Positions 163-6,388 of a stretch of DNA of 6,388 nt are shown here, piece by piece. The notes under the pieces were generated by a model, which was given only the letters and a program-made list of their open reading frames with translations, ran no database searches and was not told where the DNA came from. Both the position numbers and the translations under genes were made by a program. Within the stretch, counting starts at the first letter, position 1. The number at the start of each line of letters is the position of its first letter. This DNA comes from Deltaproteobacteria bacterium (lineage in GTDB: Bacteria > JAUYMQ01): positions 1-6,388 of the forward strand of contig JAUYMQ010000344.1 in assembly GCA_030698575.1 (NCBI GenBank), in the 5' to 3' direction.

Positions 163-432
163 GTGAATGCCCGCGAGATGGCGGGAGAGAGCAAGTCGAT
201 GTCGTTTGTGGCGCGTATCTGGTTGGAACGCGGCCATAACGGAGAGCCCGTCTGGCGAGGGCATATCAAGCACGTTCAGGGCGGCGAGGAAAGCTACTTT
301 CAGGATCTTGGGGAGATGAACGAGTTTCTCGAACGCGTTAGCGGCATTCCCGGACCGTCAGCGGCAAGCGAATCCGGGGCCCATGCCTCTCCGCCATCCG
401 GCTCCGTCGCCAGAAGAAAGCGAAAGGTATGA
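163..432 (+). CDS. Small conserved-looking protein of unknown function
   Basis: This is an 89-residue soluble protein with no signal peptide, membrane segment, cysteine pair or heme motif. Residues about 14-56 form the recognisable part: a strand-like start (SFVARIWLE), then PVWRGHIKHVQGGEESYF and an amphipathic helix (DLGEMNEFLERV). From memory, small bacterial proteins with the pattern R-I-W ... W-R-G-x-I-x-H-V-x-x-G ... Y-F-x-D-L ... F-L/I are widespread and unnamed. The tail (about 57-89) is rich in Pro, Ser and Ala, ends in basic residues (RRKRKV) and looks disordered. The GTG start has a strong ribosome binding site; ATG starts at codons 6 and 13 are alternatives. The stop overlaps the next ATG (ATGA), so it leads the operon and is probably translationally coupled to the bd-like gene. 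A role in assembly or regulation of the complex would be a guess from position only. Confidence 0.75.
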   Translation: MNAREMAGESKSMSFVARIWLERGHNGEPVWRGHIKHVQGGEESYFQDLGEMNEFLERVSGIPGPSAASESGAHASPPSGSVARRKRKV

Positions 433-2231
433 GGGAGACCGTGGTTATGGCGTGCGCGCGGAGGCTCGTCACTCGATACCTCTTTGTTGTTACGGCCGTC
501 GCCGCCGTCTTCGAGGCCGGCGTCGCCGCCGCACAGGGGGCGCCGCTGGCACCCGAATATGCCGCCCCTGCCTTGATGGACAGCCGGCTCGTGGTGTGGG
601 TCGCGGCTCAGCTACATCTCGACTTCGCCGCCTTCGTGTTGGCGGTGCCGATGTTCGCTCTGGTGATCGAGTTCTTCGGCTGGCGCATGGCCAAGCACGA
701 CGCGGCGGCGGCCACCCGGTACGACTGGCTGGCGCACGAGATGGCCCGTTTGCTCCCCGCGGCGTACTCCTTGACCGCCATTACGGGGGCGCTTCTCGGG
801 TTTATTCTGTTCAGCGCCTACCCGCGGTTCATGGGGTATCTCACGAATACGTTCGGGCCGACGTTCGTGGTCTATCCGCTATTCTTCGTCGCCGAAACGC
901 TGTGCCTCTACTTCTGGTACTACGCGTGGGACCGACTGCAGGGCGACCGCAAGTGGGCGCACTTGGTCTTGGGCCTGTTCCTCAACATCTTCGGCACGAT
1001 TGTCATGTTCATCGCCGATGCCTGGGCGACGTTCATGATGACGCCGACCGGGGTGGACCATCAGGGCGCGCTCGTCAGCCTCTATGACGCGGTGTGGAAC
1101 CCGGGCTGGATGCCGCTCAACATCCACCGCCTGATCGCCAACATCACCTTCGGCGCGCTGCTTTGCGCCGCATACGCCGCTTACCGATTCTTGAGCGCTC
1201 GTACGGAGAACGAGAGGGCCCTCTATGATTGGATGGGGTACACGGGCAACCTGATCGCTCTCTTCACCATGCTCTTCCTGCCCTTCGCGGGGTACTACTT
1301 CGGCTTCGAGCTCTTCGCCTTCTCGGCCACCTATGGCGTGACGCTGATGGGCGGGGTGCTCTCGTGGCTGTTCATTATCCAGGCCATCGTCATTGCCATC
1401 CTGTTCATTGGTGCGGCCTATTACGCCTGGCTCGGGCTCCTGCGAATCCCCGGCTCCGAACCCCAGCGGCGTTGGATACCGGCCTTCAACGTCATTCTCA
1501 TTCTCGGGTTCATGGTATGGGCGACGCCGCACACCATGGCTGCCTCGATCGAGGAATCGACCGGGCAGTTCCACCCGCTCCTCGGCGCCCTCGGCCTCAT
1601 GGCGCCGAAGATGATCGCGGTGACGCTTGTCCTCGTGGTGCTCTACGTGAGCTATCTCCTCTATCGACGGGCCGGCAAGGTTCTGACTGTTCCCTGGGCG
1701 CGGACGGGCACCATAGTGGAATGGGGCTTGGTCGGTCTGACGGCTTTCGCCATCACGGCGCTCGGAGTCTACGGCTACTTCGCCCCTGCCGACGTCCGGA
1801 TCGCCACCTCCATTTGGCAAATCGTCGTGCTCATCGCCGGCATCGTCGTCACTTTTGTTCTGGATCTGCTCCTGCTCCGCGGATCGCGAACGGTCGCCGA
1901 GGTGCGCTGGGGCAGCATGCCCCGGCGCGGTCAATACGTTCTCGTCACGTTGGCCTTCGTCATCGTCTGGCTAATGGGGCTGATGGGCTATGCGCGGAGC
2001 GGAGCACGCCTCAACTGGCACGTCTTCGGCATCGTGCAGGACACATCCGCGAGCGCCGGCCTTCCCACCCTGGGAGAGGCGGCGATCATGGTCACCTTGA
2101 TCACTGTCGTTTTCTTCGCGTTGCTCGCGATAGCCTTTGCGATCTCGGCCATGGCGGAGAGGGGCGCGCCGCCGCGCCTCGCGCCGGGGACTCGTGAGCC
2201 TGCGGCGACTTCGGAAGGAGTTCGAACGTGA
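429..2231 (+). CDS. Cytochrome bd oxidase subunit I-like membrane protein, divergent
   Basis: This 600-residue integral membrane protein has a signal-like segment (about 14-35, ending AAAQG) and about 13 further hydrophobic helices, against about 9 in ordinary CydA. Its first half aligns by eye with E. coli CydA: His63 matches His19, Glu156 in FVAETLCLYFWYYAWDRL matches Glu107, and His233 in NIHRLIANITFG matches His186. Further on, Met395 (APKMIAV) fits the second b558 ligand, Met393. The quinol loop (Lys252/Glu257 region) is replaced by hydrophobic sequence. The GRQPW-AIGE stretch becomes ARLNWHVFGI near residue 530, so the Glu445 heme ligand is missing, with His531 nearby. The Glu99 position is Val or Tyr. 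No subunit II gene adjoins it. It probably takes part in electron transfer or O2 reduction at the membrane, linked to the cytochromes c encoded next to it; from memory, quinol-site-lacking bd-superfamily members occur in Nitrospira. Codon 7 (ATG at 447) has a better Shine-Dalgarno (AGGGAG, 9 nt away) and may be the true start; 429 is kept because of the ATGA overlap. Confidence 0.85.
   Translation: MRETVVMACARRLVTRYLFVVTAVAAVFEAGVAAAQGAPLAPEYAAPALMDSRLVVWVAAQLHLDFAAFVLAVPMFALVIEFFGWRMAKHDAAAATRYDWLAHEMARLLPAAYSLTAITGALLGFILFSAYPRFMGYLTNTFGPTFVVYPLFFVAETLCLYFWYYAWDRLQGDRKWAHLVLGLFLNIFGTIVMFIADAWATFMMTPTGVDHQGALVSLYDAVWNPGWMPLNIHRLIANITFGALLCAAYAAYRFLSARTENERALYDWMGYTGNLIALFTMLFLPFAGYYFGFELFAFSATYGVTLMGGVLSWLFIIQAIVIAILFIGAAYYAWLGLLRIPGSEPQRRWIPAFNVILILGFMVWATPHTMAASIEESTGQFHPLLGALGLMAPKMIAVTLVLVVLYVSYLLYRRAGKVLTVPWARTGTIVEWGLVGLTAFAITALGVYGYFAPADVRIATSIWQIVVLIAGIVVTFVLDLLLLRGSRTVAEVRWGSMPRRGQYVLVTLAFVIVWLMGLMGYARSGARLNWHVFGIVQDTSASAGLPTLGEAAIMVTLITVVFFALLAIAFAISAMAERGAPPRLAPGTREPAATSEGVRT
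2215..2220 (+). promoter_or_regulatory. Ribosome binding site for a GTG start
   Basis: AAGGAG (within GGAAGGAG) lies 7 nt before the GTG at 2228, inside the end of the bd-like gene. It supports this rare start, which overlaps the previous stop as GTGA. The next in-frame ATG, at 2360, would remove the membrane anchor. Confidence 0.7.
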
Positions 2232-3064
2232 GTCGGACATCTTCCTATGCGGCGGCGACCTTGCCGGCCCTGATCGTGCTTGGCTTCATCGTCTGGTTCG
2301 CCAACTGGATCCCACAGACCCGCTGGGAGCCGCCAAAGACGAGGCAGATCACGGCGGCGATGTCGCCTTCCCAACTTGCGGGACTCGGCAAGGCGATTGT
2401 TCGCGAAAGGGGCTGCCTCGCCTGCCACACGATCGAGCCCGGTGTCGGCGTCAAGGGCCATGGGCGAGGCCCTAATCTCGCCAATATTGCGGCGCGGCGA
2501 GTCCAAGGTGTCCCTGGCGGCCCGGGCAACTTGGTCGAATATTTGGCCCAGGCCCTCTATGAGCCCGGAGCGTATCTGGTCGAGGGGTACGCCGGCATCA
2601 TGCCCTCTTCCGTGCGGGCTCCGGCCAAGCTCAACTACGAAGAAGTAACAGCCGCCGTCGCCTACCTCCAGTCCCTGGGCGGCAAGCCGACGGCGCGGGT
2701 GGGCGATTTGCCGCGACCGCCGGCCGAGGCAGAAACAGCGAGGACGACCCAGGGGGAAGGGACGGCAGGTGCGACCGATCCCAAGGACATTCTCACCAAG
2801 TTCGATTGTCTCACTTGCCACAGCCTGAAACCCGGCGAAGTGCTCGTCGGGCCGCCCTTCGAGACGACGTTATTGAAAAAGGCTGCGGCCGCGCGGGGTG
2901 TGACCCCCGAAGCCTACATCATGGAATCGATCATTGATCCGCGTGCCGTGGAAGTGGGCGACTTTCCCAAGGAGACGATGCCCGACGACTACGGGAAACG
3001 CTTGACCGCCGCGCAAATTTACGCGCTGACGCGCTATCTGATCGAGCCGGAGAAGAAGAAATGA
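2228..3064 (+). CDS. Membrane-anchored diheme cytochrome c
   Basis: This is a 278-residue protein with one N-terminal hydrophobic helix (about 9-28) that acts as an uncleaved anchor or signal sequence. Two class I-type cytochrome c domains follow. Domain 1 (about 47-150) has heme motif Cys63-Leu-Ala-Cys66-His67 and a probable axial Met125 (AGIMPSS). Domain 2 (about 184-273) has Cys194-Leu-Thr-Cys197-His198 and probable axial Met251 (KETMPDD). A Pro/Ala/Glu/Thr-rich linker (about 155-183) separates them. Both domains end in the typical helix (VTAAVAYLQSL and AAQIYALTRYLI). It should sit on the outer face of the membrane and carry electrons between the Mo enzyme, the second cytochrome and the bd-like protein. 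It overlaps both neighbours by 4 nt. It is not close to a named cytochrome I can identify; the diheme layout and heme ligands are secure, the partner assignments are inferred. Confidence 0.93.
   Translation: MSRTSSYAAATLPALIVLGFIVWFANWIPQTRWEPPKTRQITAAMSPSQLAGLGKAIVRERGCLACHTIEPGVGVKGHGRGPNLANIAARRVQGVPGGPGNLVEYLAQALYEPGAYLVEGYAGIMPSSVRAPAKLNYEEVTAAVAYLQSLGGKPTARVGDLPRPPAEAETARTTQGEGTAGATDPKDILTKFDCLTCHSLKPGEVLVGPPFETTLLKKAAAARGVTPEAYIMESIIDPRAVEVGDFPKETMPDDYGKRLTAAQIYALTRYLIEPEKKK
3049..3052 (+). promoter_or_regulatory. Ribosome binding site inside the preceding gene
   Basis: GGAG followed by a purine-rich run (AAGAAGAA) lies 8 nt before the ATG at 3061. It supports this start, whose ATG overlaps the stop of the diheme cytochrome gene as ATGA. 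Confidence 0.55.
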
Positions 3065-3861
3065 ACGCCGACACGCAAAGCCGAAACCGGTTTTCCGTGC
3101 CGCTTCCCGTTGGCGCGCTACTAGTCGTCGTCCTCGTTTTCGTAATGCTGAAGCTGATTCGGCCGGTGATCCCCCAAAGCGTCATCCTCTTGTACATGGG
3201 CTTCGTGGTGCTCGGCGTCGTCATTCACCTCACGCTCGACGACGATCGCATAAGACGGTTCTGGAACTTCTTCGTTCGCGCTGGAGACGAAGGTCCGGTT
3301 CTGCGCGCCCAACGCTGGGCGCTCCTCGCGGTGCTGCCCCTGGTCGCGGGATGGTGGGCCTACGACGCCGTGCGGCCGCGGTATACGCCGCCGGTCGAGA
3401 TCTTCCAGCGGCATCCGACGGTCGGAGAGGAGGTCCTGGGCCGGATCCAGGTGCCGGAGTGGGCGGCGAATCCCGCGAAATGGCGCGCCGAAGACATCGC
3501 CGAAGGCAAGAAGCTCTATGCGGCTAACTGCGCCGTCTGCCACGGCGAGAAGCTCGACGGCAATGGTCCAGCGGCGGCCGGCTTCCGTTATCCGATCCGG
3601 CCCGCGGACTTTCGCGACGTGGGTACGATCGCGCAGCTGACGATGCGTTACGTGTACTGGCGGATGACGACGGGCGGCATCCAGAATCAATTCAACAGCC
3701 CGATGCCGCGCTGGGTAGCTTCCGCCGATGGCCCTCAGGTCTCCACGCTCCATAGTTACGATTTCACGCCCGAAGAAGGATGGAAGGTCATCATCTATCT
3801 TTATCGGGCAACGGGTTACGAGCCGCGCAAGGAAGAGCTGCGCGACTATAAGAGCCATTGA
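3061..3861 (+). CDS. Triple-pass membrane protein with C-terminal monoheme cytochrome c
   Basis: This 266-residue protein begins with three hydrophobic segments (about 13-33, 39-58 and 86-105), joined by a charged loop (about 59-83, DDDRIRRF...RAGDEG). A linker (about 106-142) leads to a cytochrome c domain (about 143-252). That domain has heme motif Cys157-Ala-Val-Cys160-His161, a following GEKLDGNGPAAAGF segment typical of class I cytochromes, a probable axial Met215 (NSPMPRW) and a C-terminal helix (EEGWKVIIYLYRAT). Three membrane passes after a cytoplasmic N terminus put the heme domain outside, on the same side as the Tat-exported Mo subunit. It probably relays electrons between the NXR-type enzyme and the bd-like membrane protein. 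I do not recognise a named family for the three-helix part. Its stop shares a base with the next ATG (TGATG), which suggests coupling to the catalytic subunit gene. Confidence 0.92.
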   Translation: MNADTQSRNRFSVPLPVGALLVVVLVFVMLKLIRPVIPQSVILLYMGFVVLGVVIHLTLDDDRIRRFWNFFVRAGDEGPVLRAQRWALLAVLPLVAGWWAYDAVRPRYTPPVEIFQRHPTVGEEVLGRIQVPEWAANPAKWRAEDIAEGKKLYAANCAVCHGEKLDGNGPAAAGFRYPIRPADFRDVGTIAQLTMRYVYWRMTTGGIQNQFNSPMPRWVASADGPQVSTLHSYDFTPEEGWKVIIYLYRATGYEPRKEELRDYKSH

Positions 3862-6388
3862 TGGCCGGGGAAGGGAACATGGCGGAGACACCGTCCGGGG
3901 ACGAGACGATGAAAACGCGAAAGATCAGTCGCAGACATTTGTTGATGGGAGCGGCGGGAGTCGCCGGCGCCGCGGCCGGGGCGCAAGCGTTGCGCGGCCT
4001 CGCGGCGGAGCCGGGCTTCGAAGGCCGCGCCCTGGCCGTGGTCGCGCAAATCGAAAACCCGCTGGAATACTACCCCGACCGCGACTGGGAGGAAGTCTAC
4101 CGTAACCAGTACGCTTACGACCGCACGTTCACCTTTATCTGCGCGCCCAACGATACCCACATGTGCCGCGTGCGGGCCTTCGTGCGCAACGGCGTCGTGA
4201 TCCGCCTCGAGCAGAACTACGACTACCAGAGGTACTCGGACCTTTACGGCAACAAGGCGACGTACGCCTGGAATCCACGCATGTGCCTCAAGGGCTATAC
4301 GATACACCGGCGGGTGTACGGCCCCTACCGGGCCAAGGGTCCGATGATCCGGAAGGGCTGGAGGCAATGGGCCGATGACGGCTTCCCCGCCCTTTCGGAC
4401 GATCCCGCGCTGCGCACGAAATACAGGTTCGATTCGCGGGGAACGGACGACTTCGTCCGCGTGTCCTGGGATGAAGCGGCCACCTACTTGGCCAAAGGCC
4501 TGATGGCGATCGCGCGCACCTACAGCGGTGAGGAAGGAAAACGACGGCTCATCGAGAAGGACGGTTATCCCGCCGAGATGCTCGAGCACTGGGAGGGCGC
4601 CGGCACGAGGACGATCAAACTCGGGAGTTCGCTGCCCATTCACGGTGTCATCGGAAAGTTCGGCCTCTTCCGGATGGCTAATCTGCTTGGTCTGGTGGAC
4701 GCGCATGTGCGTGGCGTAGGGCCGGGCGAGGCGAAAGGAGCGCGGGAGTGGTCGGAATACACCTGGCGGGGGGACCAGGCGCCAGGACAGCCGTTCGTGC
4801 ATGGTTTGCAGACTTCGGACATCGACCTCAACGACCTCCGCTTCACGAAGTTTACGGTTCAGGTCGGGAAGAACCTGATCGAGAACAAGATGCCGGAGGC
4901 GCACTGGCTGACGGAATTGATGGAACGCGGCGCCCGCATCGCCGTGATCGCGCCAGAGTACAATCCGGCGGCGACCAAAGCGGATTACTGGATATCGGTT
5001 CGGCCCGGCCTCTCGGATACGGCCATCTTTCTCCACGTGACCAAGGCCCTTATGGACAAGGGCTGGTATGACGCGCCGTTCGTCAAGCAGTTCACCGATT
5101 TCCCGCTGCTCGTACGGACCGATACCCTCAAACGGCTCAAGCCGGAGGACGTCATTCGCGGATACCGTAACAAGGACATCAGTCGCGGGCCCAGCTTCAC
5201 GATCCATGGGATGACTGCCGAGCAACGCGACCGTCTCGGCGATTTCGTCGTTTACGACCTCACATCGCGGGGTTTCAGGCCGATCAGCCGCGACGACGTG
5301 GGCCGCAAAATTGCAGACGCCGGCATCGACCCCGCGCTGGAGTGGAGGGGTCGTGTCACGCTCTTGGATGGGGCTGAGATCGAGGTGATGACGGTGTGGG
5401 AGATGTATCGGGAGCATCTCCGGGACTACGACCTCGATACCACGGCCGATATCTGCGGGGCGCCGAAAGAGCTGATCGAAAAGCTCGTCGAGGATTTCGG
5501 GCGTCGTTTCTGGGATCCTGACTTTGTCGGCAGGCCCCGCGAGGCCTACCCAGTGGCGATCCACTTCGGCGAGGGCATCAACCATTATTATCATGCGACA
5601 CTACACAATCGCGCGACCTTTCTGCCGCTGATGCTGATCGGCAGCGTCGGCTTCCACGGGGCAGGCGCGCATACCTGGGCCGGAAACTACAAGGGCGCGC
5701 TGCTACAGGGCTCCGGGTGGTCGGGGCCGGGTGTCGGCGGCGCCTGGGTGAAAGAAGACCCCTTTAATCAGGTGCTCGACCCGGATGGACAAATCCGACC
5801 CGAAAACATCCGCGAACTTCTGCATGGCGAGGAAATGAGCTACTGGGGCTTTGGCGATCGGCCCCTGATCGTCGACACGCCGGGAGAGGGGCGCAAGAAC
5901 TTCACGGGCCGAACCCACATGCCGTCGCCCACCAAGGCGATGTGGTACTGCAACGCCAACCTCATCAACCAGGCTAAATGGGTCTACCACCTTCTCGTCC
6001 ACGTTAATCCCAAGGTCGACCTTATCGTCGACCAGCAAGTCGAGTGGACGGGATCGGCCGAGTATTCCGACATTGTGCTGCCGGCGAATACCTGGCTCGA
6101 GTTCGAGGATCTCGAGTGCGGCGCCTCCTGCTCCAATCCCTTCCTCCAATTATGGGGCGGCAACGGGATCAAGCCGCTCTACGACTCCAAGGATGACGGG
6201 ATGATCTTCGCCCTCGTTTCGCAGAAGCTCACCGAGCTCACGAACGACCATCGATTCCGGGACCACTGGAAATTCGTCCTCGAGGGCAAGTCCCAAGTCT
6301 ACATCCAGCGGGTGTTCGACAACTGCACCACGACGAAGGGTTACAAGGTTTCCGACATCATGGAGGGCAAGTATGGGGAGCCGGGGGC
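3861..6388 (+). CDS. nxrA: NxrA/NarG-type molybdopterin oxidoreductase, catalytic alpha subunit (partial, 3' end cut)
   Basis: The frame stays open for 842 codons to the window edge. By family knowledge NxrA is about 1,100-1,150 residues, so roughly the last quarter is missing, including most of the C-terminal cofactor-binding domain. It is the Mo-bis-MGD subunit of a class II DMSO reductase-family enzyme, converting nitrite to nitrate or the reverse. Residues 21-49 are a Tat leader ([10 protein letters not shown], hydrophobic Ala/Gly run, then LAAE), so it works outside the cytoplasm. The FS0 cluster motif is Cys94-x3-Asp98-x3-Cys102-x39-Cys142. Asp280 in [10 protein letters not shown] fits the Mo-ligating Asp of NarG (Asp222). 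[14 protein letters not shown] (336-349) and [16 protein letters not shown] (362-377) are cofactor-site motifs of the family. Stretches such as [29 protein letters not shown] and [16 protein letters not shown] strongly resemble Nitrospira and anammox NxrA as I remember them. Starts at 3879 and 3909 are in frame; 3909 gives the most usual Tat leader length, and 3861 is the outer limit, which overlaps the previous stop. The iron-sulfur subunit NxrB should lie downstream. Selenate, chlorate or perchlorate reductases are less likely alternatives. Confidence 0.92.

Follow-up and report, generated by a model that had tools for sequence, protein, structure and literature searches.

A predicted NXR-type operon in which a bd-like protein and two cytochromes c lead directly into nxrA, shared with proteobacterial relatives

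Introduction

The nxr cluster of Kuenenia stuttgartiensis encodes NXR, TorD, alt_NxrC, a monoheme and a diheme cytochrome c, and a bd-like protein (PMC3578206). This cluster (kustd1699-1713) and the sets of Nitrospina gracilis and Nitrospira defluvii share NXR, TorD, both cytochromes c, and the bd-like protein with the operon type described here (PMC3578206, PMC8387239). For the bd-like protein of Nitrospina, a role like that of alternative complex III has been suggested (PMC3578206). In Nitrospira, alt_NxrC, two cytochromes c, and a bd-like protein form a conserved cluster (PMC6606698). The alt_NxrC_2/two cytochromes c/bd-like_3 cluster of Nitrospira moscoviensis, proposed to act as a partner of NXR or in reverse electron flow, represents the same module but pairs it with alt_NxrC and has not been reported to form an operon with nxrA (PMC6606698).

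Two other systems are comparable in part. The OR-N enzymes (CydAA') resemble the bd-like protein in being related to CydA and in having a proposed cytochrome c partner (PMC10839748, PMC12342949). The nxr locus of “Candidatus Nitrotoga,” a member of the Betaproteobacteria, likewise encodes a periplasmic NXR with NxrA, NxrB, NxrC, and a chaperone, but its NxrA belongs to another clade and no bd-like/cytochrome module has been reported for it (PMC6050957).

The sequence analyzed here (the window) is one whole contig (C235) of 6,388 bp from a draft genome of 4.13 Mb in 653 contigs, 91.6% complete and 4.6% contaminated. We compared its genes with related loci in other genomes, found by scanning one genome per species with an alignment of bd-like proteins, which yielded at least 80 loci; taxon names of the relatives follow the public records as deposited.

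Results

Gene layout and cytochromes. Five open reading frames, all on the + strand, occupy the contig: a small protein of 89 aa (positions 163 to 432), a bd-like membrane protein with the CydA fold, 600 aa, and about 15 hydrophobic segments (429 to 2231), a diheme cytochrome c of 278 aa (c2; 2228 to 3064), a monoheme cytochrome c of 266 aa (c1; 3061 to 3861), and the 5' part of nxrA (3909 to 6388), which the contig end cuts. Pfam recognizes Cytochrom_C and Cytochrome_CBB3 in c2, which has heme motifs CLACH (2414 to 2428) and CLTCH (2807 to 2821) and one N-terminal membrane segment, and Cytochrome_CBB3 in c1, which has a single heme motif, CAVCH (3529 to 3543), and N-terminal membrane segments. 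The content claimed by the first-pass annotation, three c-type hemes, a Mo subunit, and a membrane protein of the bd family, was confirmed by Pfam, the CxxCH motifs, and a match to the Kuenenia structure 7b04_B. No RNA families were found in the 6,388 bp.

Neighboring genes overlap by 4 bp at three junctions (small protein/bd-like, bd-like/c2, and c2/c1), and the last two of these overlaps are kept in nearly all relatives. Candidate start codons (ATG) for nxrA lie at 3861, 3879, and 3909, with homology and the twin-arginine motif running from about 3909. Because nxrA begins 4 to 43 bp past the c1 stop in the relatives, it probably does not overlap c1 in this contig either; the description of four overlapping genes therefore stands for bd-like/c2 and c2/c1 but probably not for nxrA.

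The 89-aa protein had no match in Pfam or NCBIfam, and a copy (57 to 58% identical) was found just 5' of the bd-like gene in only two relatives, L054 and L058. Another small gene, X (83 to 89 aa), stands between nxrA and nxrB in every complete relative and in a Rokubacteria locus (L172); examples are L060 16811-17062 and L054 12182-12451. The L060 copy had no match in Pfam, and protein X is possibly an assembly factor.

NxrA. The fragment covers 826 to 843 aa of about 1,150 to 1,190. Its best match among solved structures is subunit A of Kuenenia NXR (7b04_B, 1090 bits), against which the full-length NxrA of a relative, L055, scores 1653 bits. Motifs were aligned to 7b04_B by way of that relative. 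CAPNDTHMC (4140 to 4166) supplies the counterparts of FS0 ligands C67, D71, and C75 and of the substrate residue Asn70 of Kuenenia NxrA, and NPRMCLKG (4272 to 4295) supplies the fourth FS0 ligand (C115 in Kuenenia); the roles of Asn70 and of the 3Cys/1Asp FS0 site have been described for the Kuenenia enzyme (PMC8387239). The Mo-coordinating Asp motif (Y-4x-D-11x-Q; PMC6050957) is present as YTWRGD-11x-QT (4758 to 4814), the residue after Q being T, not N or M. A Tat signal was recognized by inspection of the leader, with the twin-arginine motif SRRHL at 3927 to 3941.

In a tree from which Nitrospira sequences were left out, a clade of 13 rows supported at 100/100 joins this NxrA with those of Scalindua, Rokubacteria, and Chloroflexi. 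Within it, a proteobacterial subclade that includes the contig holds nine rows at 100/100 (the contig counted once or twice), or ten with the more distant L147. Identity is 54 to 60% to the NxrA of Scalindua, Rokubacteria, and Chloroflexi but falls to about 40% against the other NXR/NAR type. In FS0 ligands, Mo motif, Tat signal, and phylogenetic position, the protein agrees with alpha subunits of the Nitrospira/Nitrospina/anammox type, and its sequence identifies it as a predicted alpha subunit of a Tat-exported, periplasmic-type NXR of that kind. The possibility of an inactive paralogue was considered and is not supported, as the FS0 and Mo ligands are intact.

The bd-like protein. Pfam Cyt_bd_oxida_I (PF01654) spans residues 52 to 290 (E value, 2.5e-15). 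A structure model built from 59 sequences (pLDDT 86.9; a 10-sequence model was weaker, at pLDDT 71) matched ten CydA chains at Z scores of 31 to 34 and rmsd values of 3.5 to 4.0 over about 350 residues, followed by membrane subunits of alternative complex III (Z, 19 to 23.5) and polysulfide reductase PsrC (Z, 14.8). His63 (codon at 615 to 617), Glu156, and His233 (codon at 1125 to 1127) align with CydA His19, Glu99, and the heme b558 ligand His186, which we take to be heme-site residues in E. coli numbering, and they never vary in the rows examined, His63 being invariant in 80 of 80. Alongside these features of canonical CydAB, two others are missing: neither the quinol-loop signature QPxKxAxxE nor the GRQPW segment, which lies next to the heme b595 Glu of CydA, occurs in any of 81 bd-like sequences. 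Past residue 376 the alignment holds no invariant Glu; any reading of this for heme b595 is tentative, given that the C-terminal half aligns weakly to CydA. The missing quinol loop and GRQPW segment, together with the likeness in fold to alternative complex III, match what has been described for the bd-like protein of Nitrospina (PMC3578206).

Close relatives. Twelve close relatives, mostly proteobacterial MAGs with bd-like proteins 75 to 83% identical to that of the contig, carry the same gene order, here called the fused operon; their bd-like proteins form one clade with a support of 1.0. The order bd-c2-c1-nxrA is present in all of the eight closest among the matches listed (76 to 83%), which are labelled Gammaproteobacteria, Betaproteobacteria, Burkholderiales, Ideonella, and Pseudorhodoplanes. 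Seven of the eight have nxrB-torD-nxrC on the same contig, and the eighth has the rest on another contig of the same genome. Sampling 399 genomes of the order of one relative added four fused-type loci (5 of 399, including the reference genome), three with the full operon and one on a contig ending inside c1, while no fused operon besides that of the reference genome was found in 398 genomes sampled from the same relative's phylum. The first-pass annotation had proposed a search for the same gene order near nxrA homologues, and the order recurs: in all 11 testable close relatives, drawn from the matches listed and the order sample, bd-c2-c1 continues into nxrA. Chance or an assembly artefact can be ruled out as the source of an order that independent contigs repeat.

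The complete order in the relatives is bd-c2-c1-nxrA-X-nxrB-torD-nxrC, with the nxrB, nxrC, and torD partners on one contig in 10 relatives; in the contig's own case these positions lie beyond its end. The beta, gamma, and chaperone genes had seemed to be separated from alpha, an impression that the contig end created, since X-nxrB-torD-nxrC lies directly 3' of nxrA in relatives. Loss of nxrB, torD, and nxrC is thus ruled out for the clade. A search of the contig's own genome bin with a relative's nxrB recovered only a second, unrelated NXR/NAR (on contig C514) and weaker Fe-S proteins.

Some members of the clade show further features. In genome G105 (locus L061), the bd-like protein is 83% identical to that of the contig, but no NxrA of the fused clade diverges more (66 to 69%), a hint that the module and NXR were perhaps exchanged independently of each other. 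Some fused-operon genomes (G098, G099, and G105) have an additional NxrA of the roughly 40%-identity type; in G098 it shares a contig with the fused operon, about 10 kb away. A universal stress protein is encoded near fused nxr operons and bd-like/alt_NxrC clusters (L060 20059-21552, where it has a C-terminal PCP_red domain; similar genes in L039, L041, L042, and L059).

Distant loci and the place of alt_NxrC. The matches listed include 72 more distant bd-like loci (bd-like identity of 52% or less) from Rokubacteria, Gemmatimonadota, Acidobacteriota, Bacteroidota, Chloroflexi, Nitrospinae, Scalindua, and others. In 68 of these 72, c1 is followed by alt_NxrC, which has two cytochrome c domains and an EB_dh domain; the contig ends in the other 4, and nxrA is the fourth gene in none of the 72. 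The possibility had been raised that homologues of the bd-like and cytochrome genes lie mostly away from nxrA, and this holds for the wider family (0 of the 72 distant matches listed) but not for the clade (11 of 11 testable relatives). A search for alt_NxrC in nine fused-operon genomes found it in none, the hits being limited to the EB_dh domain of NxrC or to scattered cytochromes; the same search found it in Scalindua, Chloroflexi, and Rokubacteria at E values of 1e-90 or below. The fused operon thus keeps the bd-c2-c1 order of the bd-like/c/alt_NxrC module with nxrA in place of alt_NxrC as fourth gene, and from these comparisons we conclude that nxrA occupies the alt_NxrC position in the fused lineage and that alt_NxrC was lost.

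Similarity to reference loci indicates that many of the distant bd-like loci run on into aa3-type oxidase genes. Modules of the form bd-c2-c1-alt_NxrC (L062-L133), often followed by such genes, are common across phyla in which nitrite oxidation is not known, and their function is therefore probably broader than nitrite. This suggests that the bd-like module works generally as a cytochrome c device and became linked to NXR in the fused clade. In Rokubacteria GWA2_73_35 (L172), bd-c2-c1-alt_NxrC and torD-nxrB-X-nxrA-alt_NxrC adjoin in convergent orientation on opposite strands, a possible intermediate arrangement.

Host and genome content. The nearest relatives of the contig are proteobacterial MAGs. 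Its tetranucleotide profile correlates with that of its bin at r = 0.954, within the spread of the bin's contigs in the contig sample. Its proteobacterial affinities are compatible with either horizontal transfer or a misbinned proteobacterial fragment. Heme-copper oxidase genes are present in all nine fused-operon genomes. RuBisCO was found in 4 of 8 relatives, which fits lithoautotrophy in some of them, and none was detected in the contig's own genome. That genome also carries the second, unrelated NXR/NAR-type operon (nxrA, nxrB, nxrC-like, and torD; L028, C514 2375-11794), which belongs to the roughly 40%-identity group, is 76% identical to its counterpart in a Myxococcota MAG (L154), and is flanked by a porin-like gene on one side and by a 152-aa gene and a 360-aa gene on the other.

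Discussion

The gene set of this operon is already known from Kuenenia, Nitrospina, and Nitrospira and is not a new kind of system; what is new is how compactly its genes are ordered, that alt_NxrC has been lost, and that it occurs in a proteobacterial setting. The Kuenenia cluster, whose NxrA is of the same type, comprises about 15 genes, including alt_NxrC, cupredoxins, and a zinc-finger-like protein, whereas the type described here has no alt_NxrC and runs from bd-c2-c1 straight into nxrA. A limited literature search, which is weak evidence, found no description of a bd-c2-c1-led nxr operon without alt_NxrC in Burkholderiales-type or other proteobacteria.

The original proposal of a coupled operon, in which an NXR-type alpha subunit is encoded together with two membrane-anchored cytochromes c and a bd-like protein, is upheld by genes that are co-directional and partly overlapping and by a linkage that extends across the clade. 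We consider it probable, from gene content and order, that the contig is the promoter-proximal half of a periplasmic NXR operon with an electron-transfer module of its own, in which c1 and c2 would deliver electrons to a heme-copper oxidase and the bd-like protein would be their membrane partner. The downstream genes X, nxrB, torD, and nxrC would follow as they do in the relatives. NxrAB would be exported by Tat, nitrite would be oxidized at Mo, and electrons would pass through the Fe-S chain and NxrB to the heme b of NxrC. Membrane-anchored c1 and c2 would then stand in for alt_NxrC as acceptors of these electrons and hand them on to the heme-copper oxidase, which the cell encodes separately. 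The bd-like protein would be a membrane partner carrying heme b, most likely tying the cytochromes to the membrane, rather than a canonical quinol oxidase; it may also connect them to the quinone pool and so allow reverse electron flow, a role in quinone reduction that only the shared fold points to. The Kuenenia enzyme works in both directions (PMC8387239), and the direction of electron flow cannot be read from sequence.

How closely the two halves of the operon cooperate is a separate matter. They may share only a promoter, with NXR and the bd-like/cytochrome module never in contact and their linkage reflecting transfer of a useful gene set. The L061 locus, where the bd-like protein is 83% identical but NxrA only 66%, indicates that the halves need not coevolve, and in Rokubacteria L172 both operons adjoin but on opposite strands. 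The conserved 4-bp overlaps, the short gaps, and the complete loss of alt_NxrC in the fused clade suggest functional coupling instead, and we regard a shared promoter alone as a possible but somewhat unlikely explanation. A further step, to which we give a similarly tentative standing, would be that the proteobacterial NXR, without alt_NxrC, docks directly on a bd-like/cytochrome c membrane complex to form one nitrite-oxidizing respiratory unit, in hosts to which nitrite oxidation has not been ascribed and in some of them alongside RuBisCO.

A different end point for the electrons would follow if the bd-like protein were itself an oxygen reductase of the OR-N type fed directly by c1 and c2, making the operon a complete chain from nitrite to O2. 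OR-N enzymes, which are widely distributed among Nitrospinota and Nitrospirales, have been proposed to reduce O2 with electrons from cytochrome c (PMC10839748, PMC12342949), and the clear CydA fold and the alignment of His63, Glu156, and His233 with the CydA residues speak for this reading. However, OR-N is thought to need two CydA-like subunits (CydAA'), a pair that was not found in most fused-operon genomes: five of nine drafts (G000, G098, G101, G102, and G103) have a single bd-like gene. The lack of the GRQPW segment by the heme b595 Glu in 81 of 81 bd-like proteins, the heme-copper oxidases in 9 of 9 genomes, and the position of the bd-like module beside aa3 oxidase genes in many phyla also argue against it, and we find it doubtful.

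It is improbable that the enzyme is mainly a periplasmic nitrate reductase to which the bd-like protein and the cytochromes carry quinol electrons, since, although NXRs of the superfamily are bidirectional (PMC8387239), some members of the neighboring clade are nitrate reductases (PMC6050957), and RuBisCO went undetected in four of the eight relatives and in the contig's genome, this NxrA groups with anammox-type NXRs, the Nitrospira, Nitrospina, and anammox enzymes are described as exclusively NXRs (PMC6050957), and nitrite oxidation is expected to be paired with c-type carriers of high potential.

The route by which electrons leave periplasmic NXR, and the role of the bd-like proteins, have been long-open questions since the genomes of Nitrospira and Nitrospina became available. 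A natural variant that holds the whole path in one compact operon, with no alt_NxrC, leaves a shorter list of candidate partners: c1, c2, and the bd-like protein. One proteobacterial order and its relatives may include unrecognized nitrite oxidizers, and these may grow more easily than anammox bacteria or Nitrospira.
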